From Haematococcus lacustris (lineage: Eukaryota > Chlorophyta > Chlorophyceae > Chlamydomonadales > Haematococcaceae), in contig JASKMD010000006.1 in assembly GCA_030144725.1 (NCBI GenBank), positions 198,418 to 262,417 on the forward strand: a stretch of DNA of 64,000 nt, given 5' to 3'. Positions 985 through 25,014 of this stretch are shown here, piece after piece. Position 1 is the stretch's first letter. The number at the start of each line of letters is the position of its first letter. The notes under the pieces were generated by a model, which was not told the origin of the DNA, ran no database searches, and saw only the letters and a list, made by a program, of their open reading frames with translations. A program made the position numbers and the translations under genes.

Positions 985-1131
985 CACTCACGATAAACAA
1001 GGACCGGTCGCGATTGGACCGACCATAGCTCATTGGAAAGAAGAGTAGAAGGCCGTTCGAACGGTACAAGTCTTACGCTAATTCCGTGCATCCGTTGCGA
1101 CGCAATTTGGCCGCGAATTTTATAACCACGT
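985..1131 (+). other. Transposon subterminal module A
   Basis: About 147 bp of conserved sequence between the terminal repeat and the palindrome array. It contains a GGACCGGTCGCG segment and the 12-bp palindrome CCGTTCGAACGG. Near-identical copies, each starting with the terminal repeat, are at 10706-10855 and 13591-13738, and inverted at 24868-25014. Conservation of this stretch across copies with different interiors suggests a cis-acting end region. Confidence 0.8.
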
Positions 1132-1405
1132 ATCTGTACAGATTCGCTAGGTAGCTATCTGTACAGATGTCTGCAAAGCTATCTGTACAGATGCTTCTTG
1201 CTATCTGTACAGATAGCTTCTTGAATATCTGTACAGATGCCCCTTTCAGCTATCTGTACAGATGCCTCTGAGCTATCTGTACAGATGCCTTTGAGCTATC
1301 TGTACAGATGCTTCTTTGCTATCTGTACAGATGCTTGCTTTGCTATCTGTACAGACGCTTGTTTTGCTATCTGTACAGACGCTTGTTTGAGTATCTGTTC
1401 GGACG
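1132..1405. repeat. ATCTGTACAGAT palindrome array (module A side)
   Basis: About eleven copies of the 12-bp perfect palindrome ATCTGTACAGAT separated by short spacers. The last copies decay (CAGACG, then CTGTTCGGACG). It directly abuts module A. Short open frames through it are products of the repeat. Confidence 0.9.
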
Positions 1406-1424
1406 TTTCTTACATATCTCCTTG

Positions 1425-1735
1425 TCCAAACACCCCGCAACACCTCGCTACAACCCCGCAATACACATGCATTGACGCTCAAACACCTCGCAACACCTCG
1501 CTACACCCCCGCAAAACACATGCATTGTCGCTCAAACACCTCGCAACACCCCCGCAAAACACATGTATTGACACCCAAACACCCCGCAACACCTCGCAAC
1601 ACCCCCGCAAAACACATGTATTGACACCCAAACACCCCGCAACACCTCGCAACACCCCCGCAAAATACATGCTTGGACACCCAAACACCCCGCAACACCT
1701 CGCTACACTACTCCTAAACACATGTCTTAGTCCAC
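1425..1735. repeat. AACACCCCGC-type minisatellite
   Basis: Imperfect units of roughly 50 bp built from CAAACACCCCGCAACACC and CCCCCGCAAAACACATG blocks. The same minisatellite follows the module-A array at 14125-14395 and, inverted, at 24185-24530. It is therefore a regular part of the transposon interior. Confidence 0.85.
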
Positions 1736-2269
1736 CATCACCCCGAGACACCTCCCTACGGGAATGCTAAGCATATGCATTGATGCATCAACGACTTGCA
1801 ACACCTCCGCATAAGGTGACGAGGTGACAACACCATACAACAACACAATGACATCAACAACAACAACAACACCAACAACAAGACCACCACCACACACACA
1901 CACCATGGTGACAACACAACAACACAACGATGGGTACAAGGTGACAACGTGACAACGAGGATGGACGCTACAACAAGGGTGATGCTACAACTGTCCATGG
2001 TGATGTATTACACCGGGTGCAACTTCATAGCCTCCTCTTACGTGCTCCCGCTATCCTTCACCCGCCATACTACCATTGACGCCCACCTACCACACCTATG
2101 CCATGTCGCACAACAAGCACGGGCTGACAACCATCCAGCTATCGTCCCCTTAGGAGAGGGATAAGTAGGGTCATTGTGGTGTGTGGGCATGGCATGGCAT
2201 GTGTGGGCTGGGTGGGCTGCTACTACGGGATCCCACTCCAAGCTGCCCGCTCCATGTTGCCCGCTCCGA

Positions 2270-2425
2270 GTTGCTACGCCAAGGGTAGGGTAGGGAGAGG
2301 GCTGCTACGCCAAGGGTAGGGTAGGGAGAGGGCTGCTACGCCAAGGGTAGGGTAGGGAGAGGGCTGCTACGCCAAGGGTAGGGTAGGGAGAGGGCTGCTA
2401 CGCCAAGGGTAGGGTAGGGAGAGGG
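2270..2425. repeat. 31-bp minisatellite, five copies
   Basis: Five near-perfect copies of a 31-bp unit containing CTACGCCAAGGGTAGGG. Two or three related copies are at 15117-15180 and, inverted, at 23635-23697, the equivalent interior position in the sister elements. Unique G-rich sequence follows to 2770. Confidence 0.85.
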
Positions 2426-2776
2426 CTGCAGCGTGTGTTGTGGGCGGGGGTGGGAAAGGGGGGAGGTAGGTGGGGTGGTAGACTTGGAGGTGGTGGGACA
2501 AGGTAGGGTAGGGGAAAGGGGGAAGGGGGAAGGGGGAAGGGTGAAGGAGGAAGGGGGGAAGGGGGGAGGACTGACCGTGGGACCTGCAGTAAACAATGGG
2601 CATCTTTGCGGTTAGGCTGGGCAGCGGACCACTCATGTGCAAGGGCTGGCCACTCACAGTTTGCTAGCGCCTCTTCCATACCTACTTGGCATCGCCTCCA
2701 TGGCTGCCGCTCCTGGCTGCTCCTGCGCTCCATGCACCTGCTTCTTGTGGTAGGGTGATGGAGGAGGTGGTGGTGG

Positions 2777-3264
2777 GTGGGGATGGGGGTGGGGGTGGGG
2801 GTGGGGGTGGGGGTGGGGGTGAGGGGTGGGGGTGGGGGTGGGGGTGGGGGTGGGGGTGGGGGTGGGGGTGGGGGTGGGGGTGGGGGTGGGGGTGGGGGGG
2901 GGGTGGGGGTGGGGGTGGGGGTGGGGGTGGGGGTGGGGGTGGGGGTGGGGGTGGGGGTGGGGGTGGGGGTGGGGGTGGGGGTGGGGGTGGGGGTGGGGGT
3001 GGGGGTGGGGGTGGGGGTGGGGGGGGGGTGGGGGTGGGGGTGGGGGTGGGGGTGGGGGTGGGGGTGGGGGTGGGGGTGGGGGTGGGGGTGGGGGTGGGGG
3101 TGGGGGTGGGGGTGGGGTGGGGGTGGGGGTGGGGGTGGGGGTGGGGGGGGGGTGGGGGTGGGGGGGGGGGGGGGGGGGGGTGGGGGTGGGGGTGGGGGTG
3201 GGGGTGGGGGTGGGGGGGGGGTGGGGGTGGGGGTGGGGGTGGGGGTGGGGGTGGGGGTGGGGGT

Positions 3265-3348
<84 letters not shown>

Positions 3349-4001
3349 GGGGGTGGGGTGGGGTGGGGCTGGGGGTGGGGGTGGGCGTGGGCTGGGGTGG
3401 GGCTGGGGCTGGGGCTGGGGCGTGGGCGTGGGCGTGGGCGGTGGGGGGCTGGGGCTGGGGCTGGGGCGTGGGCGTGGGCGTGGGCGTGGGCGTGGGCTGG
3501 GGCTGGGGCGGGGCGTGGGCGGGGCGGGGCGGGGCGGGGCGGGGCGGGGCGGGGCGGGGCGGGGCGTGGGCGGGGCGGGGCGGGGCGGGGCGGGGCGGGG
3601 CGGGGCGGGGCGGGGCGTGGGCGGGGCGGGGCGGGGCGGGGCGGGGCGGGGCGGGGCGGGGCGGGGCGGGGGGGCGGGGCGGGGCGGGGCGGGGCGGGGC
3701 GGGGCGGGGCGGGGCGGGGCGGGGCGGGGCGGGGCGGGGCGGGGCGGGGCGGGGCGGGGCGGGGCGGGGCGGGGCGGGGGGGGCGGGGCGGGGGGGGGGG
3801 GCGGGGGTGGGGGTGGGCGGTGGGGGCGGGGGTGGGGGGCGGGGCGGGGGGGGGGGGGGGGGGGGGCGGGGGGGGCGGGGCGGGGCGGGGCGGGGCGGGG
3901 CGGGGCGGGGCGGGGCGGGGCGGGGCGGGGCGGGGCGGGGCGGGGCGGGGCGGGGCGGGCGGGGCGGGGCGGGGCGGGGCGGGGCGGGGCGGGGCGGGGC
4001 G
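2777..4001. repeat. 1.2-kb guanine-run satellite
   Basis: GGGGGT hexamers dominate 2777-3265. An almost pure guanine run of about 80 bases occupies roughly 3267-3347, then GGGGCT/GGGCGT and GGGGC pentamers to 4001. The long Gly/Trp/Val and Pro/His/Arg frames on either strand are translations of this low-complexity DNA. G-quadruplex potential is extreme, and the true length may differ from the assembly. Confidence 0.95.
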
Positions 4002-4711
4002 GCTCCTGGCTGCTTCTGGCTGCTGCCGCCTTGCCTACGCCGCTGCCGCCTTGCCTGCAATCACCAAGCATGCTACACATGTGATGCTCATGGTTAAGGC
4101 TGCAACCACACTGCTAGCAAGCATGGAGGCATAGTTGCAACAGCCTGTGCTGATGCCACATAGCATCTGAACGCAATCAACATAGCACTCCCGGGCTTTC
4201 CTTGCTTCCCTTGCTCCTCCACTCTGGGGTACGGGCTCCGAGCTTCTCTTGGGTTGCGCCTCCTAGCTGTTTGCTACTCCTAGCTGCTGCTCTTGGCGTC
4301 TGATAATGGCTGCTCCTCCGACCTGCACTTGCACAAGCAACGCATGACACATTGATGTTATGCGATCGCACCTGTGTAGTCTTTGTACATTCTCTTGCTT
4401 CCCTTGCTCCACTTATCCGCGCCTCCCTTGCTCCTCCGATCCCACTGCTTATCGCCGCGCCTCCTGGCTACGACTTGTGCGTGCTTGTTGATCCTGAGTA
4501 CCTCTACCTCCTAGTCGCGCCTCCTCTTTGTGACTGGTCGCGGATGGCTGCGAGGCTGAGTCTTATGGTGGCTAGGATGGGGGGCTACTTCGCGAAACCG
4601 CGACTCTAAGCCTAGTTGTGAGGCTACTCGTAGCTGATCGTGGCTCCTTTGAGGATTGGGCGTAGTATGCATGCGGTTTGGCTGCATGGTACTTCAAATG
4701 CCAAGGTGTGC
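4002..4711. other. Unique interior of transposon copy 1
   Basis: Mixed-composition sequence with CTGGCTGCT-like motifs and several CTTGCTTCCCTTGCTCC repeats, but no coding signature. It has no counterpart in the other two complete copies and is probably acquired sequence. Confidence 0.5.
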
Positions 4712-5795
4712 GTCTGTACAGATAGCGTAAGGGAGCATCTGTACAGATAGCGAGGTGTGCGTCTGTACAGATAGCGACCGTCATCATCTGTACAGATACT
4801 CCGCCAATAATCTGTACAGATGCTCCCTTTCGCTATCTGTACAGATAACTATTTTACCATCTGTACAGACGGACCTTTGAATATCTGTACAGATAACACT
4901 TGTCGACATCTGTACAGATGCTACCCTTGCTATCTGTACAGATTTATTTTAGGGGCATCTGTACAGATAATTTATAGGTGTATCTGTACAGATGCTTTAA
5001 ATCGCCATCTGTACAGATAAACACCCCCGGCATCTGTACAGATACACCTATTGCTATCTGTACAGATACACCTTGTCAACATCTGTACAGATTTTACCCT
5101 TGCTATCTGTACAGATTTATTTTAGGGGCATCTGTACAGATAATTATAGGTGTGTCTGTACAGATGCTTTAAATCGCCATCTGTACAGATAAATACCCCC
5201 GGCATCTGTACAGATACACCTATTGCCATCTGTACAGATACCACTTGTCAACATCTGTACAGATTTTACCCTTGCTATCTGTACAGATTTATTTTAGGGG
5301 CATCTGTACAGATAAATATAAGTGTGTCTGTACAGATGCTTTAAATCGCCATCTGTACAGATAAGTACCCCCGGCATCTGTACAGATACACCTATTGCCA
5401 TCTGTACAGATACCACTTGTCAACATCTGTACAGATTTTACCCTTGCTATCTGTACAGATTTATTTTAGGGGCATCTGTACAGATAATTATAGGTGTGTC
5501 TGTACAGATGCTTTAAAGTTCGCCATCTGTACAGATAAATACCCCCGGCATCTGTACAGACAGCCTCTCAAAATCTGTACAGATGTTACCTTAACGCTAT
5601 CTGTACAGATTTACCTATAAATATCTGTACAGGTTCACGTATCTGTACAGATATTCCAAAATAATCTGTACAGATGACAGCAAGTGGTATCTGTACAGAT
5701 GCAAGGAAGGCATCTGTACAGATGCCGCATATCCTTGGGGCCATCGACATGCATCTGTACAGATGGCGGGGCCATTAGACGGGCATCTGTACAGA
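4712..5795. repeat. ATCTGTACAGAT palindrome array with 172-bp higher-order repeat
   Basis: Dozens of ATCTGTACAGAT palindromes with 12-13-bp spacers. From about 4918 to 5520 the array has a higher-order unit of 172 bp. Each unit holds seven palindromes with seven distinct spacers in fixed order, giving a regular 24-25-bp period. Only substitutions distinguish successive units, so amplification is recent. Not a CRISPR: the spacers themselves repeat and the host is eukaryotic. Confidence 0.95.
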
Positions 5796-5974
5796 TTCCC
5801 AAAAGGGGGGGGGTACCTCGCGCGCGGATTGTTGTATCTTCGCAACCGCTGCGAGTTAGGACTTCATTCAAGAGCGAGGTCCCCCTTAAACTCAACGCTC
5901 TATCGTCTCTATCGGAGCAGAATGTCCTTCCGATGCAAAAAAGGCCCTCGCGTCGGCCTTATTTATCGTGAGTG
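5796..5974 (-). other. Transposon subterminal module B
   Basis: Conserved stretch of about 180 bp from the last palindrome to the terminal repeat. Landmarks are a C/G homopolymer, GGTACCTCGCGCGCGGAT, CGCAACCGCTGCGAGTTAGG and a poly-A/T tract before GGCC. Other copies are at 9369-9545, 12253-12429, 16999-17175 and 21660-21836. Module B is always on the side opposite module A, which shows that the elements have two different ends. Confidence 0.85.
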
Positions 5975-5976
5975 CA

Positions 5977-6483
5977 TACATAGGTGTAAGGTCTAAGGCC
6001 GGGGCCCGTCTCTATCGCAAGCTAGGTCCGTTCTGTCGGTTGTACTGGGTACCTCGGCTTGCAAGCTCCCGCTTCCAGCTGTGGATGTTGATGATGCCCC
6101 GCAATCACAACAACCTCGTGCACCGCACCCTCCCGTGTAATATCGAGTGCGGCAGAGATTGCACCAAAAGTTGTTTGCGGTTGGCCCTCAACCATCCAAC
6201 ATTACATCTAACCTCACATCATTACATCATGACTCTTAACCTCCATCATAACATCACCACTTGTGTTCCTAACACAAGGGCTAGGCTCAGGGTCGGTAAC
6301 GAATCCTAGAGGCTGAGTAGGGCTGGGCAGGGCTGGGCTGGGCTCGGCAACATAGGCACGCTTTGTTGTCAGCGCATTTGCATAGCACTGTCGGGATAGC
6401 AAACGAGCTTGGGCTACATTGAGTTGTTCCTGCATGGGGGTGAAGGGGGCATGGGGGTTAAGGATGCATGGGGGGAAGGCAGC
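5977..6483. other. Unique flank
   Basis: Flanking DNA right of transposon copy 1. A CATCATTACATCATGAC-like low-complexity patch lies near 6215. No gene is recognised. Confidence 0.4.
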
Positions 6484-8292
6484 TACAGTACTGTAGGGGT
6501 CTACAGTACTGTAGACACCTACAGTACTGTAGACACCTACAGTACTGTAGACATTTACAGTACTGTAGACACCTACAGTACTGTAGACCCCTACAGTACT
6601 GTAGACACCTACAGTACTGTAGACACCTACAGTACTGTAGACATCCTACAGTACTGTAGACATCCTACAGTACTGTAGACCCCTACAGTACTGTAGACAC
6701 CTACAGTACTGTAGACCCCTACAGTACTGTAGACACCTACAGTACTGTAGACATCTACAGTACTGTAGACATCCTACAGTACTGTAGACCTCTACAGTAC
6801 TGTAGACACCTACAGTATTGTAGACATCCTACAGTACTGTAGACATCTACAGTACTGTAGACATCCTACAGTACTGTAGACACCTACAGTACTGTAGACA
6901 CCTACAGTACTGTAGACACCTACAGTACTGTAGACACTTACAGTACTGTAGACACCTACAGTACTGTAGACATCCTACAGTACTGTAGACATCCTACAGT
7001 ACTGTAGACACCTACAGTACTATAGACATCCTACAGTACTATAGACATCCTACAGTACTGTAGACACCTACAGTACTGTAGACATCCTACAGTACTGTAG
7101 ACCCCTACAGTACTGTAGACACCTACAGTACTGTAGACACCTACAGTACTGTAGACACCTACAGTACTGTAGACACTTACAGTACTGTAGACATCCTACA
7201 GTACTGTAGACATCCTACAGTACTGTAGACATCCTACAGTACTGTAGACACCTACAGTACTATAGACATCCTACAGTACTGTAGACATCCTACAGTACTG
7301 TAGACACCTACAGTACTGTAGACATCCTATAGTACTGTAGACCCCTACAGTACTGTAGACACCTACAGTACTGTAGACACCTACAGTACTGTAGACACCT
7401 ACAGTACTGTAGACATCTACAGTACTGTAGACATCCTACAGTACTGTAGACCTCTACAGTACTGTAGACACCTACAGTACTGTAGACATCCTACAGTACT
7501 GTAGACATCTACAGTACTGTAGACATCCTACAGTACTGTAGACACCTACAGTACTGTAGACATCCTACAGTACTGTAGACACCTACAGTACTGTAGACAC
7601 CTACAGTACTGTAGACACCTACAGTACTGTAGACATCCTACAGTACTGTAGACATCCTACAGTACTGTAGACACCTACAGTACTATAGACATCCTACAGT
7701 ACTGTAGACATCCTACAGTACTGTAGACACCTACAGTACTGTAGACATCCTACAGTACTGTAGACCCCTACAGTACTGTAGACACCTACAGTACTGTAGA
7801 CACCTACAGTACTGTAGACACCTACAGTACTGTAGACATCTACAGTACTGTAGACATCCTACAGCACTGTAGACCTCTACAGTACTGTAGACACCTACAG
7901 TACTGTAGACATCCTACAGTACTGTAGACATCTACAGTACTGTAGACATCCTACAGTACTGTAGACACCTACAGTACTGTAGACATCCTACAGTACTGTA
8001 GACACCTACAGTACTGTAGACACCTACAGTACTGTAGACACCTACAGTACTGTAGACATCCTACTGTACTGTAGACACCTACAGTACTGTAGACACCTAC
8101 AGTACTGTAGACATCTACAGTACTGTAGACATCCTGCAGCACTGTAGACACCTACAGTACTGTAGACATCTACAGTACTGTAGACACCTACAGTACTGTA
8201 GACATCTACAGTACTGTAGGTACCTACAGTACTGTAGACATCCTATTGTACTGTAGACACCTACAGTACTGTAGACACCTACAGTACTGTAG
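6484..8292. repeat. CTACAGTACTGTAG palindrome array 1
   Basis: About 95-100 copies (estimated from length) of the perfect 14-bp palindrome CTACAGTACTGTAG. The spacers are only 4-5 bp, mainly ACAC, ACAT, ACATC, ACCC and ACCT, so the period is 18-19 bp. Order blocks of spacers recur (for example from the ACCT spacers near 6787, 7449 and 7870), showing a higher-order repeat of a few hundred bp. Rare variants (CTATAG, CAGCACTG) mark individual units. Confidence 0.95.
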
Positions 8293-8796
8293 GCAGCAGC
8301 AGCATGGGTGGCAGCAGCAGCAGGGGGGGGGGGGCAGCAGCAGCAGTAGGGGGGCAGCAGCAGCAGCATGGGCGCAGCAGCAGCAGCAGGGGCGCAGCAG
8401 CAGCAGCTGTAGGGGGGGCAGCAGCAGCAGCAGCAGCAGCAGCAGGGGGGGCAGCAGCAGCAGCAGGGGGGGCAGCAGCAGCAGCAGCAGCAGAGGGCAG
8501 CAGCAGCAGCAGCAGCAGGGGGGCAGCAGCAGCAGCAGCAGGGGGGCAGCAGCAGCAGCAGCAGGGGGGCAGCAGCAGCAGCAGGGGGGCAGCAGCAGCA
8601 GCAGAGGGCAGCAGCAGCAGCAGCAGCAGGGGGGGCAGCAGCAGCAGCAGCAGCAGTAGGGGGGCAGCAGCAGCAGCAGCAGCAGTAGGGGGGCAGCAGC
8701 AGCAGCAGCAGCAGGGGGGCAGCAGCAGCAGTAGGGGGGCAGCAGCAGCAGCAGGGGCGCAGCAGCAGCAGCAGCAGCAGTGGCAGCAGCAGCAGA
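8288..8796. repeat. CAG/GCA triplet array with GGGG interruptions, copy 1
   Basis: Tracts of 4-8 GCA triplets separated by GGGGGG or TAGGGG. All reading frames give homopolymeric Ala, Gln, Ser, Cys or Leu, so none is a credible gene. It recurs at 11213-11683 and 20588-21091 with the same interruption order. Confidence 0.9.
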
Positions 8797-9368
8797 TATA
8801 GTAGGGGCACTGTAGCACCTACCTACCTTTTGGCTGCTTGATGACTGCTGCTAGGAAGGGGGGGGGATTGGAAGAGTGAAGGCGGGGAGGGGGGGTAGAT
8901 GTGGAAGGCGGGAGGTGGGAGCCAGGGAGGCGGGAGACGGGGAGGCGGGAGGCAGGGAGGCGGGAGGTGGGGAGGCGGGAGGCTCAACCGGGTTGGGCTG
9001 GGCGGGGGTGGGTTGGGTTGGGGGCATGGGTTGGGGTGGGTGGGGGCATGGGTTGGGGGCATGGGTTGGGGTGGGTGGGGGCATGGGTGGGGGTGGGGGC
9101 GGGGGCGGGGGCGGGGGAGGATGAATTGGGAGGGGGTGGTTGTTTAGGGGGAAGGGAAGTGGAAAAGAGGTGCCCACTAGACCTGCAACCAAGGGGCGCG
9201 CACGTGCGGTAGGGTGACCAGGCTGGGCACTGTGTTAGCTATCACCGTGGCCTTACCTTTGTGGTCCTCCTGGCCTCCTACCTGCTCACACCAGGCAACA
9301 TATCCCATGCGCCAGTGGGGTGGGACTGCGGTGGGGAGTGTAGGGTGTAGGGAAGGGAATGTGGGGTG
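8797..9368. other. G-rich flank of the duplicated block, copy 1
   Basis: Contains a GGGAGGCGGGAGGC-type minisatellite (about 8905-8985), a GGGGGCATGGGTTGGGGTGGG minisatellite (about 9003-9120) and a mixed-sequence tail to 9368. On the minus strand the tail shows a splice-donor-like AAAGGTAAGG (about 9252) and an acceptor-like GGTTGCAG (about 9185). The whole flank is repeated at 11686-12252 and 21095-21659. Confidence 0.7.
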
Positions 9369-10705
9369 CACTCACGATAAATAAGGCCGACGCGGGGGCC
9401 TTTTTTGCATCGGATGGACTTTCTGCTCCGATAGAACGATAGAGCGTTGAGTTTAAGGGGGACCTCGCTCTTGAATGAAGTCCTAACTCGCAGCGGTTGC
9501 GAAGATACATCGATCCGCGCGCGAGGTACCCCCCCCTTGTTGGGAATCTGCACAGATGTTGGTTAAATGAGCCCGGAATCTGTGCAGATGCATGCCGATG
9601 CCTTTAGGAAAAGCGACATCTGTGCAGATGCCGGTTATTAAATCTGTGCAGATGCTAATAAAGGCGACATCTGTGCAGATGGCGGTAATTAAATCTGTGC
9701 AGATGCACAAAAGGGCGACATCTGTGCAGATGCCGGTTATATTTAAGGACGACATCTGTGCAGATGCTAATAAAGGCGACATCTGTGCAGATGCCGGTTA
9801 TTAAATCTGTGCAGATGCTGATAAAGGCGACATCTGTGCAGATGTCGGTAATAAAATCTGTGCAGATGCACAAAAGGGCGACATCTGTGCAGATGCCGGT
9901 TATATTTTAAGGACGACACCTGTGCAGATGCTAATAAAGGCGACATCTGTGCAGATGCCGGTTATTAAATCTGTGCAGATGCTGATAAAGGAGACATCTG
10001 TGCAGATGTCGGTAATAAAATCTGTGCAGATGCACAAAAGGGCGACATCTGTGCAGATGCCGGTTATAATTTAAGGACGACATCTGTGCAGATGCTAATA
10101 AAGGCGCCATCTGCACAGATAAATACCTCGACATCTGCACAGATGCCAAGTAGTGCAGCTGTGCACATGAAGGCTACGCAAAGGCACCGCGAAGGAAGCA
10201 AAGTCACCGCGAAGGAATCAAGACTCTTCCATTATTCAACAATCTGTGTGATATCTGCATGAAGTTTTCGCAAAGGTGGCGTGAAGGAAGCCAAGGAACC
10301 GCGAAGGAGCTTGGATTGCCCCATATAGCAGCAATGAGCAGCCAGGAGCAGCCAACAAAAATCGTCGCCAAAAGGCTAGCTACGAGCCAGCCAGCCGCTT
10401 AGGCGACCAGATGCCATCAGGTTAAGCGATAGGATCAAGATATAGCGACAGAAAACGGAAGGAGGCGTAGCGATGCAGCGACACAACGATGCAAAGATGC
10501 GGCAAATGCATGAGGTGCAACTAGGACACGTAGCCCGAAGCCTGTGAGACGGAGCGGAAGAGGAGTGGAGGGGCCCGGAGGCGGTCAGGAGCCATGCATG
10601 AGACGAAGCTGGGTGCACTTGAAAAAAAGTTGGGTGCACCCACACAAACCCCACCCTAGCGAATGGTGAGTATTCTATCTTGCAGTCATGTGGCTCCAAG
10701 TACCT
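9369..10705 (+). mobile_element. Transposon end with module B, duplicated copy (interrupted)
   Basis: Begins with CACTCACGATAAATAAGG preceded by TG, then module B, an ATCTGTGCAGAT array (9546-10147) and about 550 bp of unique interior to 10705, where another family member is inserted. The same TG site and flank occur at 12253 and 21660, so these are segmental duplicates of one insertion, not separate insertions. The distal end is missing here. Confidence 0.8.
9546..10147. repeat. ATCTGTGCAGAT near-palindrome array
   Basis: Near-palindromic 12-mers ATCTGTGCAGAT with 12- and 15-bp spacers alternating (GCCGGTTATTAA, GCTAATAAAGGCGAC and relatives). Because the centre is TG rather than TA, the motif has a polarity, which is constant until the last two units. 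Equivalent arrays are at 12430-13029 and 21837-22436. Confidence 0.9.
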
Positions 10706-11212
10706 CACTCACGATAAACAAGGACCGGTCGCGATTGGACCGACCATAGCTCATTGGAAAGAGGAGTAGAAGGCCGTTCGAACGGTATAAGTCTTACGTA
10801 ACTCCGTGCATCCGTTGCGACGTAATTTGGCCGCGATTTTCCTAACCAAGCAATCTGCACAGATGTCGGTTGTCCTTTATCTGCACAGCTGCTGATAGTC
10901 GACATCTGCACAGATGCAGGCGATGTCGACATCTGTGCAGCTGCGGGAAGTCGACATCTGCACAGATGTCGTATACCGCAACCAACATCTGTGCAGCTGC
11001 TGACGACGACATCTGCACAGATGTCGACTATTACATTCAATGCTTGGCTGTGCAGATGTTGACACCTACATCTGTGCAGATGTTGACAACGACATCTGCA
11101 CAGATGTCGACTATTACATTCGAGCCTTGGCTGTGCAGATGTTGTCTATAGCATCTGCACAGATGTCGACTTTTACATTCGCGGCTTGGCTGTGCAGATG
11201 TCGTGGCTTCAT
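10706..11212 (+). mobile_element. Truncated nested transposon with module A (copy 1)
   Basis: Starts with CACTCACGATAAACAAGG directly after the target CT (10704-10705), followed by module A and an ATCTGCACAGAT/CTGTGCAG array to about 11205. It then joins abruptly to the CAG array of the next duplicate. The breakpoint shows that the tandem duplication postdates this nested insertion. Confidence 0.75.
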
Positions 11213-11293
11213 CTTCAGCAGCAGAAGGGGGGCAGCAGCAGCAGCATGGGCGCAGCAGCAGCAGCAGGGGCGCAGCAGCAGCAGCTGTAGGGG

Positions 11294-11329
<36 letters not shown>

Positions 11330-11683
11330 GGGGCAGCAGCAGCAGCAGGGGGGCAGCAGCAGCAGCAGCAGAGGGCAGCAGCAGCAGCAGCAGCAGGGGG
11401 GCAGCAGCAGCAGCAGCAGGGGGGCAGCAGCAGCAGCAGCAGGGGGGGCAGCAGCAGCAGCAGGGGGGCAGCAGCAGCAGCAGAGGGCAGCAGCAGCAGC
11501 AGCAGCAGGGGGGCAGCAGCAGCAGCAGCAGCAGCAGTAGGGGGGCAGCAGCAGCAGCAGCAGCAGTAGGGGGGCAGCAGCAGCAGCAGCAGCAGGGGGG
11601 CAGCAGCAGCAGTAGGGGGGCAGCAGCAGCAGCAGCAGGGGCGCAGCAGCAGCAGCAGCAGCAGTGGCAGCAGCAGCAGATAT
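11213..11683. repeat. CAG/GCA triplet array, copy 2
   Basis: Left-truncated copy of the array at 8288-8796, with the same order of GGGG interruptions. It marks the start of the second unit of the tandem segmental duplication. Confidence 0.9.
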
Positions 11684-14108: not shown

Positions 14109-14124
14109 TCGACTATTTCATCGA

Positions 14125-14395: not shown

Positions 14396-14535
14396 AAGCA
14401 CATGTCTCGATGCACCATCACTCCACAACACCTCAATATGGACAATGCTAAGCACATGCATTGATGCACCCAATGACCGCAACACCTCCCTACGATGTGA
14501 CAAGGTAGCAACGACACAACACAACAAGAAGGTGA

Positions 14536-14738
14536 CACCACACCATCACCATCACCATCACCATCACCATCACCATCACCATCACCATCACCATCACCAT
14601 CACCATCACCATCACCATCACCATCACCATCACCATCACCATCACCATCACCATCACCATCACCATCACCATCACCCCACCCCACCCCACCCCACCCCAC
14701 CCCACCCCACCCCACCCCACCCCACCCCACCCCACCCC
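14536..14738. repeat. CACCAT and CCCCA microsatellites
   Basis: About 140 bp of CACCAT hexamers followed by about 65 bp of CCCCA pentamers. A much shorter inverted GGTGAT version is at 24090-24127 in the sister element, so tract length differs strongly between copies. The poly-His frame is a by-product. Confidence 0.95.
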
Positions 14739-15654
14739 ACACCAAGGACAACACAACAACATCACAACAAGGCGGCAAGATGACGAGGATGGACGCTACA
14801 ACAAGGTTGATGCTACACCTCTCCTTAGTGATGTATAACACGGGGTGCAACTTCATAGCCTCCACTTACGTGCTCCCGCTATCCTTCACCCACCACACTA
14901 CCATTGACTCCCACCTACCACACCTATGCCGTGTCGCGCAACAAGCACGGGCTGACAACCATGCAAGTGCTCCACCATCCAGCTATCGTCCCCTTTGGAG
15001 AGGGATGGGTAGGGTCATTGTGGTGAGTGTGCATGGCATGGCCAGGGTGGGCTGGGTGGGCTGCTACTACGGGGTCCCACTCCAAGCTGCCCGCTCTGTG
15101 TCGCCCGCTCCAGATTGCTACGCCAAGGGTGGGGTAGGGAGAGGGCTGCTACGCCAAGGGTGAGGTAGGGAGAGGGCTGCAGCGTGTGTCGTGGGGCGGG
15201 GGGTGGGAAAGGGGGGAGGTAGGTGGGGTGGCAGACTTGGAGGTGGTGGGACAGGGTAGAGAGGGGGGAAGGGGGAAGGGGGAAGGGGGAAGGAGGAAGG
15301 GGGGAGGGGGGAGGACCGACCGTGAGACCTGCAGCAAACGGGTGGGGCGTGGGGGTGGGGGTGGGGGTGGGGGTGGGGTGGTAGGGGAAAGGGGGATGGG
15401 TGTGGCCATTAGAACCTGCAAACACCAACAAGGGCATGACATGCGGTCAGAGTTGGGACCACACAGTTGCAAGGGCTCGCCACTCACAATTTGTTGGGTG
15501 GAGTGTGTGGAAGAAGAAGGGATTGGCAAGAAGTCCTCCTCCTTCTCATCCTCCTCGTTCTCGGATTGCGACTTACCACATGGCAGATGATTGTGATGTG
15601 GGATGAGGGATGTGAGATGATGCAAGGTAGGGGTGGGGAGGGGAGGTGACGGAG

Positions 15655-15908
15655 AGGGCTGGGCTGGGCTGGGCTGGGCTGGGCTGGGCTGGGCTGGGCT
15701 GGGCTGGGCTGGGCTGGGCTGGGCTGGGCTGGGCTGGGCTGGGCTGGGCTGGGCTGGGCTGGGCTGGGCTGGGCTGGGCTGGGCTGGGCTGGGCTGGGCT
15801 GGGCTGGGCTGGGCTGGGCTGGGCTGGGCTGGGCTGGGCTGGGCTGGGCTGGGCTGGGCTGGGCTGGGCTGGGCTGGGCTGGGCTGGGCTGGGCTGGGCT
15901 GGGCTGGG
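15655..15908. repeat. GGGCT pentanucleotide satellite
   Basis: About 50 perfect GGGCT units inside transposon copy 2. The opposite-strand form (CAGCC) is at 17245-17465 and 23066-23270, in the corresponding interiors of the oppositely oriented elements. Confidence 0.95.
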
Positions 15909-15971
15909 TGTAGGGAAGGGGAGGTTGGGACCATTGAACCTGCAACTATTCAGTGGTTGGCAAATAGTCAG

Positions 15972-16304
15972 GCAAGGTACTTGGAGCCACATGACTGCAA
16001 GATTAAATACTCACCATTCGTTAGGGTGGGGTTTGTGTGGGTGCACCCAACTTTGTTTCAAGTGCACCCAGCTTCGTCTTATGCATGGCTCCTGACCGCC
16101 TCCGGGCTCCTCCACTCCTCTTCCGCTCCGTCTCACAGGCTTCGGGCTACGTGTCCTAGTTGCACCACATGCATTTGCCGCATCTTTGCATCGCTGTGTC
16201 GCTGCATCGCTGCACCTCCTTCCGTTTTCTGTCGCTATATCTTGATCCTATCGCTTAACCTGATGGCATCAGGTCGCCTAAGCGGCTGGCTGGCTCGTAG
16301 CTAG
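15972..16304 (+). other. Recurrent 110-codon open frame in transposon interior
   Basis: A frame beginning near [15 protein letters not shown] and ending in GRLSGWLARS is open here and in three minus-strand copies (10376-10708, 13261-13593, 22668-23015). The copies differ by several substitutions but stay open. No domain is recognised and Cys/Ser/Leu content is high. It may be a captured gene fragment or chance; sequence relatedness alone would keep it open in close copies. Confidence 0.25.
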
Positions 16305-16524
16305 CCTTTTGGCGACGATTTTTGTTGGCTGCTCCTGGCTGCTCATTGCTGCTATATGGGGCAATCTAAGCTCCTTCGCGGTTCCTTGGCTTCCTTCGCG
16401 CCACCTTTGCGAAAACTTCATGCAGATATCACACAGATTGTTGAATAATGGAAGAGTCTTGATTCCTTCGCGGTGACTTTGCTTCCTTCGCGGTGCCTTT
16501 GCGTAACCTTTATGCTTACTTGGC

Positions 16525-16998
16525 ATCTGTGCAGATGTCGAGGTATTAATCTGTGCAGATGTCGACATTGTCGGCATCTGCACAGATGTCGCCCTTAAAT
16601 TATAACCAACATCTGCACAGATGTCGCCCTTTTATGCATCTGCACAGATTTAATTACCGGCATCTGCACAGATGTCGCCCTTATTAACATCTGCACAGAT
16701 GTCGCCCTTAAATTATAACCAACACCTGCACAGATGTCGCCCTTTTATGCATTTGCACAGATTTAATAATCGGCATCTGCACAGATGTCGCCCTTATTAG
16801 CATCTGCACAGATGTCGCCCTTATTAGCATCTGCACAGATGTCGCCCTTAAATTATAACCAACATCTGCACAGATGTCGCCCTTTTATGCATCTGCACAG
16901 ATTTAATAACCGGCATCTGCACAGATGTCGCTTTTCCTAAAGGCATCGACATGCATCTGCACAGATGCCGGGCTCATTTAACCAACATCTGTGCAGAT
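16525..16998. repeat. ATCTGCACAGAT array (module B side)
   Basis: Mostly full ATCTGCACAGATGTCGCCC-type units. Read from A to B, the asymmetric centre (CA) has the same orientation here as on the module-A side of the same element. Confidence 0.9.
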
Positions 16999-17175
16999 TC
17001 CTAAAAAGGGGGGGGTACCTCGCGCGCGGATGGATGTATCTTCGCAACCGCTGCGAGTTAGGACTTCATTCAAGAGCGAGGTCCCCCTTAAACTCAACGC
17101 TCTATCGTTCTATCGGAGCAGAAAGTCCTTCCGATGCAAAAAAGGCCCTCGCGTCGGCCTTATTTATCGTGAGTG

Positions 17176-17535
17176 CTTGCCAGACTATTTGCCAACCACT
17201 GAATTGTTGCAGGTTCAATGGTCCCAACCTCCCCTTCCCTACACCCAGCCCAGCCCAGCCCAGCCCAGCCCAGCCCAGCCCAGCCCAGCCCAGCCCAGCC
17301 CAGCCCAGCCCAGCCCAGCCCAGCCCAGCCCAGCCCAGCCCAGCCCAACCCAACCCAACCCAACCCAGCCCAGCCCAGCCCAGCCCAGCCCAGCCCAGCC
17401 CAGCCCAGCCCAGCCCAGCCCAGCCCAGCCCAGCCCAGCCCAGCCCAGCCCAGCCCAGCCCAGCCCTCCCCTCCCCTCCCTCCCCCACCACCACCTCCTT
17501 CATCACCCTACCACAAGAAGCAGGTGCATGGAGAT
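17176..17535 (+). mobile_element. Outer transposon, continuation after the nested insertion
   Basis: Resumes with CTTGCCAGACTATTTGCC exactly as in the unoccupied site at 22996. It continues through a CAGCC satellite (17245-17465, with a few CAACC units at 17340-17365) to GTGCATGGAG, then breaks into the palindrome array at 17537. In copy 3 the same sequence continues at 23330 for another 1.7 kb. The module-A end of this copy is therefore lost. Confidence 0.8.
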
Positions 17536-17536: not shown

Positions 17537-20500
17537 CCTACAGTACTGTAGACATCCTACAGTACTGTAGACATCTACAGTACTGTAGACATCCTACAGT
17601 ACTGTAGACACCTACAGTACTGTAGACATCTACAGTACTGTAGACATCTACAGTACTGTAGACACCTACAGTACTGTAGACACCTACAGTACTGTAGACC
17701 CCTACAGTACTGTAGACACTTACAGTACTGTAGACACCTACAGTACTGTAGACATCCTACAGTACTGTAGACATCCTACAGTACTGTAGACACCTACAGT
17801 ACTATAGACATCCTACAGTACTGTAGACATCCTACAGTACTGTAGACACCTACAGTACTGTAGACATCCTACAGTACTGTAGACCCCTACAGTACTTTAG
17901 ACACCTACAGTACTGTAGACACCTACAGTACTGTAGACACCTACAGTACTGTAGACATCTACAGTACTGTAGACATCCTACAGTACTGTAGACCTCTACA
18001 GTACTGTAGACACCTACAGTACTGTAGACATCCTACAGTACTGTAGACATCTACAGTACTGTAGACATCCTACAGTACTGTAGACACCTACAGTACTGTA
18101 GACATCCTACAGTACTGTAGACCTCTACAGTACTGTAGACACCTACAGTACTGTAGACATCCTACAGTACTGTAGACATCTACAGTACTGTAGACATCCT
18201 ACAGTACTGTAGACACCTACAGTACTGTAGACATCCTACAGTACTGTAGACACCTACAGTACTGTAGACACCTACAGTACTGTAGACATCCTACAGTACT
18301 GTAGACATCTACAGTACTGTAGACATCCTACAGTACTGTAGACACCTACAGTACTGTAGACATCCTACAGTACTGTAGACATCCTACAGTACTGTAGACA
18401 TCTACAGTACTGTAGACATCCTACAGTACTGTAGACACCTACAGTACTGTAGACATCCTACAGTACTGTAGACACCTACAGTACTGTAGACACCTACAGT
18501 ACTGTAGACATCCTACAGTACTGTAGACATCTACAGTACTGTAGACATCCTACAGTACTGTAGACACCTACAGTACTGTAGACATCCTACAGTACTGTAG
18601 ACATCCTACAGTACTGTAGACATCTACAGTACTGTAGACATCCTACAGTACTGTAGACACCTACAGTACTGTAGACATCTACAGTACTGTAGACATCCTA
18701 CAGTACTGTAGACCTCTACAGTACTGTAGACACCTACAGTACTGTAGACATCCTACAGTACTGTAGACATCTACAGTACTGTAGACATCCTACAGTACTG
18801 TAGACACCTACAGTACTGTAGACATCCTACAGTACTGTAGACACCTACAGTACTGTAGACACCTACAGTACTGTAGACACCTACAGTACTGTAGACATCC
18901 TACAGTACTGTAGACATCCTACAGTACTGTAGACACCTACAGTACTATAGACATCCTACAGTACTGTAGACATCCTACAGTACTGTAGACATCTACAGTA
19001 CTGTAGACATCCTACAGCACTGTAGACACCTACAGTACTGTAGACATCTACAGTACTGTAGACACCTACAGTACTGTAGACATCTACAGTACTGTAGGTA
19101 CCTACAGTACTGTAGACATCCTATTGTACTGTAGACACCTACAGTACTGTAGACACCTACAGTACTGTAGACATCCTACAGTACTGTAGACATCTACAGT
19201 ACTGTAGACATCCTACAGTACTGTAGACACCTACAGTACTGTAGACATCCTACAGTACTGTAGACACCTACAGTACTGTAGACACCTACAGTACTGTAGA
19301 CACCTACAGTACTGTAGACATCCTACAGTACTGTAGACATCCTACAATACTGTAGGTGTCTACAGTACTGTAGATGCCTACAGTACTGTAGACATCCTAC
19401 AGTACTGTAGACATCTACAGTACTGTAGACATCCTACAGTACTGTAGACATCTACAGTACTGTAGACATCCTACAGTACTGTAGACCTCTACAGTACTGT
19501 AGACACCTACAGTACTGTAGACATCCTACAGTACTGTAGACACCTACAGTACTGTAGACATCCTACAGTACTGTAGACATCCTACAGTACTGTAGACATC
19601 TACAGTACTGTAGACATCCTACAGTACTGTAGACACCTACAGTACTGTAGACATCTACAGTACTGTAGACATCCTACAGTACTGTAGACCTCTACAGTAC
19701 TGTAGACACCTACAGTACTGTAGACATCCTACAGTACTGTAGACATCTACAGTACTGTAGACATCCTACAGTACTGTAGACACCTACAGTACTGTAGACA
19801 TCCTACAGTACTGTAGACACCTACAGTACTGTAGACACCTACAGTACTGTAGACACCTACAGTACTGTAGACATCCTACAGTACTGTAGACATCCTACAG
19901 TACTGTAGACACCTACAGTACTATAGACATCCTACAGTACTGTAGACATCCTACAGTACTGTAGACATCCTACAGTACTGTAGACATCCTACAGCACTGT
20001 AGACACCTACAGTACTGTAGACATCTACAGTACTGTAGACACCTACAGTACTGTAGACATCTACAGTACTGTAGGTACCTACAGTACTGTAGGTACCTAC
20101 AGTACTGTAGACATCCTATTGTACTGTAGACACCTACAGTACTGTAGACACCTACAGTACTGTAGACATCCTACAGTACTGTAGACATCTACAGTACTGT
20201 AGACATCCTACAGTACTGTAGACACCTACAGTACTGTAGACATCCTACAGTACTGTAGACACCTACAGTACTGTAGACACCTACAGTACTGTAGACACCT
20301 ACAGTACTGTAGACATCCTACAGTACTGTAGACATCCTACAGTACTGTAGACACCTACAGTACTGTAGATGCCTACAGTACTGTAGACATCCTACAGTAC
20401 TGTAGACATCTACAGTACTGTAGACATCCTACAGCACTGTAGACACCTACAGTACTGTAGACATCTACAGTACTGTAGACACCTACAGTACTGTAGACAT

Positions 20501-20588
20501 CTACAGTACTGTAGGTACCTACAGTACTGTAGACATCCTATTGTACTGTAGACACCTACAGTACTGTAGACACCTACAGTACTGTAGG
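17537..20588. repeat. CTACAGTACTGTAG palindrome array 2
   Basis: Three kilobases, about 160-165 copies by length, of CTACAGTACTGTAG with 4-5-bp spacers. The spacer order repeats in blocks, and the right end (CTATTGTACTGTAG followed by two units and then GGCAGCAGC) matches the right end of array 1 at 8240-8300. Internal echoes of this terminal pattern near 19130 and 20115 suggest successive block duplications. Confidence 0.95.
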
Positions 20589-21091
20589 CAGCAGCAGCAT
20601 GGGTGGCAGCAGCAGCAGGGGGGGGGGGCAGCAGCAGCAGAAGGGGGGCAGCAGCAGCAGCATGGGCGCAGCAGCAGCAGCAGGGGCGCAGCAGCAGCAG
20701 CTGTAGGGGGGCAGCAGCAGCAGCAGCAGCAGCAGGGGGGCAGCAGCAGCAGCAGGGGGGCAGCAGCAGCAGCAGCAGAGGGCAGCAGCAGCAGCAGCAG
20801 CAGGGGGGCAGCAGCAGCAGCAGCAGGGGGGCAGCAGCAGCAGCAGCAGGGGGGCAGCAGCAGCAGCAGGGGGGCAGCAGCAGCAGCAGAGGGCAGCAGC
20901 AGCAGCAGCAGCAGGGGGGGCAGCAGCAGCAGCAGCAGCAGTAGGGGGGCAGCAGCAGCAGCAGCAGCAGTAGGGGGGCAGCAGCAGCAGCAGCAGCAGG
21001 GGGGCAGCAGCAGCAGTAGGGGGGCAGCAGCAGCAGCAGCAGGGGCGCAGCAGCAGCAGCAGCAGCAGCAGTGGCAGCAGCAGCAGATATA
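20588..21091. repeat. CAG/GCA triplet array, copy 3
   Basis: Same organisation as 8288-8796, differing mainly in tract length and one interruption. The G-rich flank follows at 21095-21659. Confidence 0.9.
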
Positions 21092-21659
21092 GTAGGGGCA
21101 CTGTAGCACCTACCTACCTTTTGGCTGCTTGATGACTGCTGCTAGGAAGGGGGGGGGATTGGAAGAGTGAAGGCGGGGAGGGGGGGTAGATGTGGAAGGC
21201 GGGAGGTGGGAGCCAGGGAGGCGGGAGACGGGGAGGCGGGAGGCAGGGAGGCGGGAGGTGGGGAGGCGGGAGGCTCAACCGGGTTGGGCTGGGCGGGGGT
21301 GGGTTGGGTTGGGGGCATGGGTTGGGGTGGGTGGGGGCATGGGTTGGGGGCATGGGTTGGGGTGGGTGGGGGCATGGGTGGGGGTGGGGGCGGGGGCGGG
21401 GGCGGGGGAGGATGAATTGGGAGGGGGTGGTTGTTTAGGGGGAAGGGAAGTGGAAAAGAGGTGCCCACTAGACCTGCAACCAAGGGGCGCGCACGTGCGG
21501 TAGGGTGACCAGGCTGGGCACTGTGTTAGCTATCACCGTGGCCTTACCTTTGTGGTCCTCCTGGCCTCCTACCTGCTCACACCAGGCAACATATCCCATG
21601 CGCCAGTGGGGTGGGACTGCGGTGGGGAGTGTAGGGTGTAGGGAAGGGAATGTGGGGTG

Positions 21660-24600
21660 CACTCACGATAAATAAGGCCGACGCGGGGGCCTTTTTTGCA
21701 TCGGATGGACTTTCTGCTCCGATAGAACGATAGAGCGTTGAGTTTAAGGGGGACCTCGCTCTTGAATGAAGTCCTAACTCGCAGCGGTTGCGAAGATACA
21801 TCGATCCGCGCGCGAGGTACCCCCCCCTTGTTGGGAATCTGCACAGATGTTGGTTAAATGAGCCCGGCATCTGTGCAGATGCATGCCGATGCCTTTAGAA
21901 AAAGCGACATCTGTGCAGATGCCGGTTATTAAATCTGTGCAGATGCTAATAAAGGCGACATCTGTGCAGATGGCGGTAATTAAATCTGTGCAGATGCACA
22001 AAAGGGCGACATCTGTGCAGATGCCGGTTATAATTTAAGGACGACATCTGTGCAGATGCTAATAAAGGCGACATCTGTGCAGATGCCGGTTATTAAATCT
22101 GTGCAGATGCTGATAAAGGCGACATCTGTGCAGATGTCGGTAATAAAATCTGTGCAGATGCACAAAAGGGCGACATCTGTGCAGATGCCGGTTATATTTT
22201 AAGGACGACACCTGTGCAGATGCTAATAAAGGCGACATCTGTGCAGATGCCGGTTATTAAATCTGTGCAGATGCTGATAAAGGAGACATCTGTGCAGATG
22301 TCGGTAATAAAATCTGTGCAGATGCACAAAAGGGCGACATCTGTGCAGATGCCGGTTATAATTTAAGGACGACATCTGTGCAGATGCTAATAAAGGCGCC
22401 ATCTGCACAGATAAATACCTCGACATCTGCACAGATGCCAAGTAGTGCAGCTGTGCACATGAAGGCTACGCAAAGGCACCGCGAAGGAAGCAAAGTCACC
22501 GCGAAGGAATCAAGACTCTTCCATTATTCAACAGTCTGTGTGATATCTGCATGAAGTTTTCGCAAAGGTGGCGTGAAGGAAGCCAAGGAACCGCGAAGGA
22601 GCTTGGATTGCCCCATATAGCAGCAATGAGCAGCCAGGAGCAGCCAACAAAAATCGTCGCCAAAAGGCTAGCTACGAGCCAGCCAGCCGCTTAGGCGACC
22701 AGATGCCATCAGGTTAAGCGATAGGATCAAGATATAGCGACAGAAAACGGAAGGAGGCGTAGCGATGCAGCGACACAGCGATGCAAAGATGCGGCAAATG
22801 CATGAGGTGCAACTAGGACACGTAGCCCGAAGCCTGTGAGACGGAGCGGAAGAGGAGTGGAGGGGCCCGGAGGCGGTCAGGAGCCATGCATGAGACGAAG
22901 CTGGGTGCACTTGAAAAAAAGTTGGGTGCACCCACACAAACCCCACCCTAGCGAATGGTGAGTATTCTATCTTGCAGTCATGTGGCTCCAAGTACCTTGC
23001 CAGACTATTTGCCAACCACTGAATTGTTGCAGGTTCAATGGTCCCAACCTCCCCTTCCCTACACCCAGCCCAGCCCAGCCCAGCCCAGCCCAGCCCAGCC
23101 CAGCCCAGCCCAGCCCAGCCCAGCCCAGCCCAGCCCAGCCCAGCCCAGCCCAGCCCAGCCCAGCCCAGCCCAGCCCAGCCCAGCCCAGCCCAGCCCAGCC
23201 CAGCCCAGCCCAGCCCAGCCCAGCCCAGCCCAGCCCAGCCCAGCCCAGCCCAGCCCAGCCCAGCCCAGCCCTCCCCTCCCCTCCCTCCCCCACCACCACC
23301 TCCTTCATCACCCTACCACAAGAAGCAGGTGCATGGAGCGCAAGAGCAGCCAGGAGCTGCAGCCATGGAGGCGCTGCCAGGTAGGTATAGAAGTGGCGCT
23401 AGCAAAGAGTGAGTGGCCAACCCTTGCACATGGGTGGTCCGATGCCCAGCCTAACCGCAAAGATGCCCATTGTTTATTGCAGGTCCCACGGTCAGCCCTT
23501 CCCTCTTCCCCCCTTCCTCCTTTACCCTCCCCCCTTCCCCCTTCCCCCTTCCCCACCCTGTCCCACCACCTCCAAGTCTGCCTCCCCACCTACCTCCCGC
23601 CTTTCCCACCCCCCGCCCCACGACACACGCTGCAGCCCTCTCCCTACCCTACCCCTGGCGTAGCAGCCCTCTCCCTACCCTACCCTTGGCGTAGCAACCT
23701 GGAGCGGGCAACATGGAGCGGGCAGCTTGGAGTGGGATCCCGTAGTAGCAGCCCACCCAGCCCACCCATGCCATGCCATGCCCACACACCACAATGACCC
23801 TACCCATCCCTCTCCAAAGGGGACGATAGCTGGATGGTGGAGCACTTGGGTGGTTGTCAGCATGTGCTTGTTGCGCGACACGGCATAGGTGTGGTAGGTG
23901 GGAGTCAATGGTAGTGTGGTGTGTGAAGGATAGCGGGAGCACGTAAGTGGAGGCTATGAAGTTGCACCCCGTGTTATACATCACTAAGGAGAGGTGTAGC
24001 ATCAACCTTGTTGTAGCGTCCATCCTCGTCATCTTGCCGCCTTGTTGTGATGTTGTTGTGTTGTCCTTGGTGAGGTGTGGTGTGGTGTGGGGTGATGGTG
24101 ATGGTGATGGTGATGGTGATGGTGATGTGTGGTGTCACCTTCTTGTTGTGTTGTGTCGTTGCTACCTTGTCACATCGTAGGGAGGTGTTGCGGTCATTGG
24201 GTGCATCAATGCATGTGCTTAGCATTTCCATATTGAGGTGTTGTGGAGTGATGGTACATCGAGACATGTGCTTGCAAGTCCCGTAGCGAGGTGTTGCGGG
24301 ATGTTTGGGTGTCAATGCATGTGTTTTGCGGGGATGTTGCGGGGTGTTGGGTCGTCAATACATGTGTTTTGCGGGGGTGTAGCGTGGTGTTGCGGGGTGT
24401 TTGGTCGTCAATACATGTGTTTTGCGGGGGTGTAGCAAGGTGTTGCGGGGTGTTTGGTGGTCAATACATGTGTTTTGCGGGGATGTTTCGGGAGGTTTGG
24501 GTGTCAATACATGTGTTTTGCGGATGTAAGAGTCGATGAAATAGTCGACATCTGTGCAGATGAAGCCACGACATCTGCACAGCCAAGCCGCGAATGTAAT

Positions 24601-25014
24601 AGTCGACATCTGTGCAGATGCTATAGACAACATCTGCACAGCCAAGGCTCGAATGTAATAGTCGACATCTGTGCAGATGTCGTTGTCATCAGCTGCACAG
24701 ATGTCGGTCTAGACATCTGCACAGCCAAGCATTGAATGTAAAAGTCGACATCTGTGCAGATGTCGTCGTCAGCAGCTGCACAGATGTTGGTCGCGGTATA
24801 CGACATCTGTGCAGATGTCGACTAGCAGCAGCTGTGCAGATTAAGGACAACCGACATCTGTGCAGATTTCCAATTCTTGAAATTCGCGGTCCAACTACGT
24901 CGCAACGGATGCGCGGATTAGCGTAAGACTTATACCGTTCGAACGGCCTTCTACTCTAGTTTTCATAGTGCTATGGTCGGTCCAATCGCGACCGGTCCTT
25001 GTTTATCGTGAGTG
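21660..25014 (-). mobile_element. Complete TIR transposon, copy 3 (module B first)
   Basis: Terminal repeat at 21660-21677, inverse repeat ending at 25014, flanked by TG on both sides (21658-21659 and 25015-25016). Order on the plus strand: module B, ATCTGTGCAGAT array (21837-22436), 0.55-kb unique block, unoccupied target site of copy 2 (22996), CAGCC satellite (23066-23270), exon-like block (about 23280-23500), C-rich stretch, 31-bp minisatellite, unique sequence, short GGTGAT tract, inverted AACACCCCGC minisatellite (24185-24530), mixed full/half-site array (24550-24867), inverted module A. It serves as the reference structure for the interrupted copies at 9369 and 12253. No transposase is seen. 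Confidence 0.9.
23066..23270. repeat. CAGCC pentanucleotide satellite
   Basis: About 40 perfect CAGCC units. Directly upstream is ATTGTTGCAGGTTCAATGG, which looks like a splice acceptor. Directly downstream is a polypyrimidine stretch and an exon-like block ending in CTGCCAGGTAGGT (about 23381). Confidence 0.9.

Follow-up and report, generated by a model that had tools for sequence, protein, structure and literature searches.

The window analysed here, a stretch of 64,000 bp from the genome of the green alga Haematococcus lacustris (C373:198418-262417), contains three complete transposons of one family, which share an 18-bp terminal inverted repeat (TIR), CACTCACGATAAAYAAGG, have end modules of two distinct kinds, A and B, and carry arrays of a short inverted-repeat motif just inside both modules. 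Together with their relatives elsewhere in the genome (308 Mb in 597 contigs were searched), they are probably cut-and-paste transposons of the CMC (CACTA/EnSpm-Mirage-Chapaev) type. The copies of this family, called family 1 in the following, would be non-autonomous and moved in trans, and their arrays would bind an accessory protein encoded by a transposon. In the open-access literature, judged by title or by the start of the abstract, no paper on these elements was found.

The first element, E1 (985-5974, plus strand), has its A end on the left and its B end on the right, and it is flanked by the target site duplication (TSD) CA. E2 (13591-17175, plus strand) has the TSD CT, and E3 (21660-25014, minus strand), with the B end on the left and the A end on the right, has the TSD TG, all three dinucleotides being given for the plus strand. 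The search and the reading of the flanks thus bear out an earlier note on this DNA, which had described three complete elements with common inverted ends and these duplications. The A-side array of E1 (1131-1398, plus strand) holds nine strict copies of ATCTGTACAGAT, the first of them 147 bp from the end, and the B-side array (4704-5796, plus strand) holds 36, the first 178 bp from the end. The arrays of E2 lie at 13739-14107 (A side) and 16525-16998 (B side), both on the plus strand. When up to 3 mismatches were allowed, the TIR search of the window yielded nine exact matches, compared to 0.02 expected in shuffled sequence. The additional ends at 9369, 10706, and 12253 are due to two segmental duplications, one of 2.9 kb (8338-11221 versus 11216-14105, 98.8% identity) and one of 4.3 kb (6477-10705 versus 18765-22997, 97.0% identity). 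They belong to a partial family-1 copy within a segmental duplication, consisting of the B end and an inner part (9369-10705, plus strand), to a truncated A end that duplicates the left part of E2 (10706-11215, plus strand) and is part of the 98.8% duplication, not a separate insertion, and to the family-1 copy that hosts E2, which has its B end at 12253 and continues after 17175 (12253-17534, plus strand).

The nesting of E2 in its own family is documented by an unoccupied target. The junctions of E2 read ccaagtacCT on the left and CTtgccagac on the right, and the empty counterpart at 22988-23005 is ccaagtaccttgccagac, which by reading contains one CT (22996-22997) instead of two. The empty site matches the flanks of E2 and marks the ends of the 13591-17175 copy, as had been proposed; it is paralogous, lying inside E3, and not allelic, and therefore E2 transposed into another family-1 copy.

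A genome-wide search with up to 2 mismatches retrieved 634 + 622 = 1,256 ends of family 1, compared to 2 + 1 = 3 for the same pattern read backwards, and thus about 600 copies are present in the genome. A sample of 31 elements was characterized, comprising E1 to E3, one element with a mismatch in its A end (L041), and 27 nearest facing A-B pairs at most 20 kb apart, which were drawn from the 100 exact places of CACTCACGATAAAYAAGG listed, on the first contigs of the genome. All 31 elements start with CACTC and terminate in GAGTG. Each combines an A end with a B end, which is partly by choice, because A-B pairing was a selection criterion. Two facing B-B pairs with an A end between them were present among the matches listed (L041 and L043), and the one in L043 was excluded from the count. 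An exact 2-bp TSD flanks each of the 30 evaluable elements (L039 has an N in its flank), and a 3-bp match was found in none of the 31. The TSDs represent 13 different dinucleotides, TA occurring five times and CA four times. Therefore, the ends coincide with the inverted repeat, the duplication is consistently 2 bp long, and the two distinct end modules per element that the earlier note had reported recur in this sample of chosen A-B pairs. At another locus (C1:4221724-4227903) four family-1 B ends of like orientation follow one another at intervals of exactly 2054 bp, the B end having been absorbed into a tandem repeat.

The motif of family 1 is ATCTG-NN-CAGAT, which is a perfect 12-bp palindrome only with TA in its centre. 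Strict counts of ATCTGNNCAGAT were 45, 23, and 27 in E1, E2, and E3, compared to at most 1 in 200 first-order (dinucleotide) shuffles of each window element, which corroborates the arrays proposed just inside both end modules. Further array statistics are based on 30 elements, a 110-bp copy being left out, and on motif matches in which up to 2 mismatches were tolerated. Family 1 falls into subfamilies according to the motif centre, a division that the earlier note had not recognized: the centre is mainly TA in 10 of the 30 elements and CA/TG in the other 20, and the class is identical on both sides in all 30. The arrays had been described as palindromic, and this applies to the TA-centre elements, e.g., E1; the CA/TG-centre elements, to which E2 and E3 belong, have 5-bp arms around their centre only. 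In a set of 20 elements with arrays, the B arrays of L010, L021, L022, and L027 are mostly TG, compared to CA in the other non-TA elements. The A side is rather uniform, with 6-15 sites (12-14 in 26 of 30 elements), and in 29 of 30 elements the distance between the A end and the nearest motif is 146-148 bp. The B-side arrays contain 6-45 sites and span 258-1270 bp; in 22 of the 30 elements a weak match at 52 bp is counted among these sites, and otherwise the B arrays begin about 177 bp inside. Motif spacing is most often 23-27 bp, and 35 bp is also common in the CA/TG class. The strict-match span of three long arrays that were checked is 1.06-1.14 kb, in agreement with the array length of up to 1.1 kb given before.

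At least two sister TIR families, also with CACTC ends, are present in the same genome; the earlier note had not noticed that relatives with other palindromes exist. Family 2, which was first met nested in a 10.5-kb family-1 element, has the ends CACTCGTGCAAATTAAGG and CACTCGCGCCGATTAAGG, the TSD GA in the one complete copy that was read, and 580 + 576 = 1,156 ends genome-wide (reversed control 0 + 0). Its interior aligns to E1-E3 in pieces of 24-180 bp with about 68-100% identity. Its motif, GGACCCTG-NN-CAGGGTCC, has CCCTG-NN-CAGGG within GGACC..GGTCC and forms arrays on both sides, with 17 and 14 strict copies. The array of the family-2 copy in L043 consists mostly of direct-repeat half-sites, TACAGGGTCCT, and is thereby nearer to classical CACTA repeats. 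Family 3 is represented by a complete element of 13.4 kb (C2:2928905-2942337) with the ends CACTCACACAAATTAGCAGCG and CACTCACAGGAATTAGCAGCG and the TSD TG, and by 187 + 199 = 386 ends genome-wide (reversed control 0 + 0). Its motif is ACTG-NN-CAGT; the right array is composed mostly of ACTGCTCAGT (19 copies), and the left array, which begins 24 bp inside, mostly of ACTGCTCTGT (12 copies), together with three copies of ACTGCGCAGT. The core CTG-NN-CAG is common to the motifs of families 1, 2, and 3. At C11:7827591-7850231, ten family-2 B-type ends occur in one orientation, with spacings of 2485, 2077-2078, 2464, and 2391 bp running through this order twice.

The family-1 copies of the window seem to lie within an element of a fourth family. 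Its putative ends are CACACAGGCAAATTAGT at 593 (plus strand) and CACTCAGGCAAATTAGT at 28133 (minus strand), inverted copies of CAC(A/T)CAGGCAAATTAGT that are identical at 16 of 17 positions; the dinucleotides next to these ends, TA and CT, differ from each other. The family-4 motif, CTACAGTACTGTAG, is a 14-bp palindrome. It is found at 735-784 (plus strand), where 142 bp separate the first copy from the left end, and in arrays at 6483-8292 and 17538-20587 (both plus strand) and at 27127-27998 (minus strand), where the distance of the outermost copy from the right end is 135 bp. The stretch from 593 to 28133 is thus a probable family-4 element that gathered family-1 insertions.

A mechanism can be envisaged in which transposase supplied in trans would cut the CACTC/GAGTG ends of the non-autonomous family-1 copies. 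An accessory DNA-binding protein from an autonomous relative would bind the CTG-NN-CAG inverted repeats as a dimer, like TNPA in En/Spm, and, once bound, it might bridge or mark the two ends and help the unlike A and B ends to pair. Mobilization in trans, by a transposase of the CMC superfamily, and protein binding to the arrays appear to be the most likely interpretation of the structures described above.

Genes were found in family 3. The complete family-3 element contains two spliced genes, with exon borders assigned by eye. One product we take to be an Ulp1-like protease, because it shows the Ulp1 layout (HY, the D of FFDS, Q, and the C of HCAD). It had no Pfam match, and its Haematococcus relatives had matches below the cut-off only (C48, E=0.07; C57, E=0.047). 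A profile search of PDB sequences found no protease, and among the first PDB fold matches of a weak model (predicted local distance difference test, pLDDT, 38.5) were SENP1, Ulp1, and SENP2, the best match (E=8.3e-4) being the only one below 0.001. The second product had sub-cut-off Pfam matches only (DUF4403, E 0.0047; DUF5315, E 0.031), and the model of a relative of it was unusable (pLDDT 34.7). All matches of the transposon proteins of this genome were from H. lacustris, with 65-90% identity (1/1 among the best 7,996 candidates, 8/8, and 2/2). An array of 2.4 kb composed of ACTGAGCAGT / ACAGAGCAGT is found within the complete family-3 element (L058:439-2860), apparently in an intron of the second gene, and a LINE-like (long interspersed nuclear element) stretch (597-1322) lies inside this array.

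A genome-wide search for the protease exon gave 17 occurrences, of which one is weak. The neighborhoods of seven copies were analyzed, which reside on contigs for which all exact family-3 ends were listed, the source and the weak copy being left out. For four of the seven, a facing family-3 end lies at a distance of 8.2 or 8.6 kb on the downstream side or of 14.2 or 14.7 kb on the upstream side; three have no listed exact family-3 end within 40 kb. Judged by these distances, a full-length family-3 element would measure about 22-23 kb; no such copy was seen with both of its ends. A 4-kb sample of one upstream stretch (L059) contains exons on the opposite strand, about 5-6 kb inside an exact family-3 end, the one end on which their assignment to a family-3 element is based. 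They encode CPNCNTPRF, GGDKPTSMDGYLMPVFQDL (GGDKP..YLMPVFQDL), and ADTPAR and are also present in two Haematococcus proteins. By eye, we judge these motifs to be EnSpm/TNP2 transposase-like, a judgement that Pfam did not confirm.

Several observations weigh against the interpretation as CMC-type transposons with protein-binding arrays. A family-1 member encoding a transposase was looked for, as the earlier note had suggested, and the open reading frames (ORFs) of 10 family-1 elements (11 sequences) revealed no transposase of their own. The candidate transposase exons of L059 had no Pfam match above the cut-off, only Auto_anti-p27 (E 0.035), and a profile search of the genome with PF02992 (TNP2) gave no matches, a weak result, as the controls gave none either. 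One family-1 copy (L011, C1:922607-922916) is only 110 bp long, consists of both ends without any palindrome, and yet has the TSD AG, which argues against a strict need of the arrays; either it moved without arrays or they were deleted after insertion. The arrays hold higher-order duplications (a 172-bp unit in 3.9 copies and a 164-bp unit in 3.1 copies, each at 96%), and therefore duplication also shapes them. Family 3 has a left array dominated by ACTGCTCTGT, a word without inverted-repeat symmetry, and the family-4 word contains CAG-TA-CTG, the core in reverse order; both speak against a universal core. Lastly, the conservation of the motif (0.98-2.0 bits per position, compared to less than 0.3 bits at most flank positions; 65 contexts from the A side and 80 from the B side, reduced to those with dissimilar flanks) is inflated, because the contexts were picked by a motif match with up to 2 mismatches.

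Some of these points are shared by a rival explanation, namely, that the arrays are passive satellites which grew by slippage and unequal exchange and bind nothing, so that only the ends would matter. The tandem duplications and the arrayless L011 with its TSD would fit, as would element interiors full of simple satellites, e.g., GGGCT and CACCAT, and the B-side copy number, which ranges from 6 to 45. However, the motif has been retained while the spacers diverged, the fixed distance of the first motif (29/30) and the nearly constant number of sites (26/30) on the A side are not accounted for, the centre class is matched on both sides of every element, and families 2 and 3 repeat the design with another word. 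We regard the passive-satellite explanation as unlikely.

A second alternative concerns the enzyme: the mobilizing transposase might belong to another or an undescribed superfamily, not CMC, that also leaves 2-bp duplications. The absence of PF02992 matches (with silent controls), the lack of Pfam matches above the cut-off for the L059 exons and both family-3 proteins, and the combination of CACTC ends with a 2-bp TSD unlike that of plant CACTA elements would be in line with this. However, CACT..AGTG ends and a 2-bp TSD fit the CMCT group, and subterminal repeats are a CACTA trait. We give this alternative only a small chance. Specific candidates for a mobilizer or an autonomous element were rejected. 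The hAT-like ORFs inside X11 (DUF659, E=0.0024, below the cut-off) belong to a guest, TAGGG..CCCTA, with its own 8-bp TSD ATTGACAC; hAT elements have TSDs of 8 bp, in contrast to the 2 bp found here. A nested guest at L025:404-5523 (X11 304-5423) has inverted arms of about 1.9 kb with 92.6% identity. A family-1 element of 19.4 kb (L029+L030) contains a Josephin-bearing ORF (E=5.9e-16), which was assigned to a nested LINE, presumably Dualen-like, and another large ORF without a Pfam match. The extra length of the 10.5-kb element (L024+L031) is mostly a Harbinger-like guest holding a family-2 element. By reading, this guest (L024:3659-9500) has the ends GGCCCCGTTTCCAATGGC, TAA as flanks or TSD, and the family-2 element inside. 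The KDZ (Kyakuja-Dileera-Zisupton) group is represented in the genome by at least 76 PF18758 matches; no family 1-4 end (up to 2 mismatches) was found in 14 KDZ loci (1.5-kb flanks being included for 12 of them, the other two being stretches of 10 kb), and the sequence at which two KDZ copies begin to align differs from the family ends. In addition, KDZ elements have TSDs of 7-8 bp according to PMC12730594, in contrast to 2 bp here.

A role of the palindromes in forming cruciforms or hairpins, or in binding a host protein instead of a transposon-encoded one, is very improbable despite the perfect inverted repeats of the TA type, as 20 of 30 elements have a non-palindromic centre, a 2-nt loop is unfavorable for a hairpin, and one host protein would not explain arrays whose word differs by transposon family, even if the subterminal motifs of the soybean element Tgmt* can form stem-loops.

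If the arrays indeed bind transposon-encoded proteins, each family would have its own specificity, because the motif flanks differ by family and the centre dinucleotide by subfamily. It is quite conceivable, though somewhat less likely than not, that CTG-NN-CAG stayed constant while the rest of the recognition word switched repeatedly (AT-, GGACC-, and A- flanks; TA, CA/TG, or another centre) as the transposon-encoded binding protein diverged along with it. If true, this would amount to a radiation in the specificity of transposon proteins, each state being represented by hundreds of ends. Several families in one genome, with hundreds of ends each, a similar layout, a different word, and gene-bearing relatives make the binding specificity directly testable, and they form a natural system for studying how transposons evolve jointly with the proteins that bind their DNA. 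The pace of co-evolution of CACTA subterminal repeats and their binding proteins is described as an open matter in PMC2613891. Self-nesting and the minimal 110-bp derivative are useful for finding the parts needed to move.

Other features of the window include a family-2 end remnant at 35230-35561 (minus strand), with CACTCGTGCAAATTAAGG at its minus-strand tip, and two gag-like ORFs with zinc-knuckle motifs, recognized by eye, at 28121-29137 and 31482-32421. A long ggaccctgtggtgtggtgcc repeat at 29.6-30.7 kb recurs at 33.6-34.6 kb. Pairs of GTGAGT/GTAAGT...GCAG, intron-like by eye, are found at 22950-23500 of the window and at L024:6670-6930, and no coding sequence was seen there. The region 41340-63744 has ORFs resembling, by eye, proline-rich pherophorin or C-type lectin proteins and a polycystin-like channel.

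Among known systems, the elements are most readily compared with CACTA/EnSpm transposons (En/Spm of maize, Tam1, Tgmt*) and with the CMCT group. With CACTA/EnSpm elements they share CACT.. termini, a short TIR, asymmetric subterminal arrays, and a motif that varies by subfamily. Soybean Tgmt* has 4 repeats in 159 bp on one side and 24 in 732 bp on the other, in direct and inverted copies, with the stem-loop potential mentioned above and a 3-bp TSD, and the subterminal motif differs between subfamilies of CACTA/EnSpm elements (PMC2613891). In contrast to plant CACTA/EnSpm elements, the terminus is CACTC in families 1-3 and not CACTA, the TSD has 2 bp and never 3 bp in the 31 family-1 elements, and in three families the repeated word, built around CTG-NN-CAG, forms an inverted repeat of its own. 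The CMCT group (which includes Mirage, Plavaka, ESTA, and Lanisha) has CA..TG termini in most cases and TSDs of 2-5 bp, a range that includes the 2 bp found here; PlavakaA has TGT..ACA, PlavakaB CATCA..TGATG, and ESTA TA duplications (PMC12730594), so that, compared by ends and TSD only, Plavaka and ESTA are unlike the elements with CACTC ends. The CACTA-like reading of the earlier note is thus in agreement with the CA..TG ends and 2-bp TSD of the CMCT group, and it does not extend to the CACTA terminus or to a 3-bp TSD as in Tgmt*. Judged from sequence, the elements are plausibly CMC-like and putative members of that superfamily. The arrays had also been held to be far longer than known ones; they do reach about 1.1 kb by strict matches and up to 45 sites with mismatches allowed, and yet the 24 repeats in 732 bp of Tgmt* are a precedent, and therefore the array length found here represents an extension and not a new principle.

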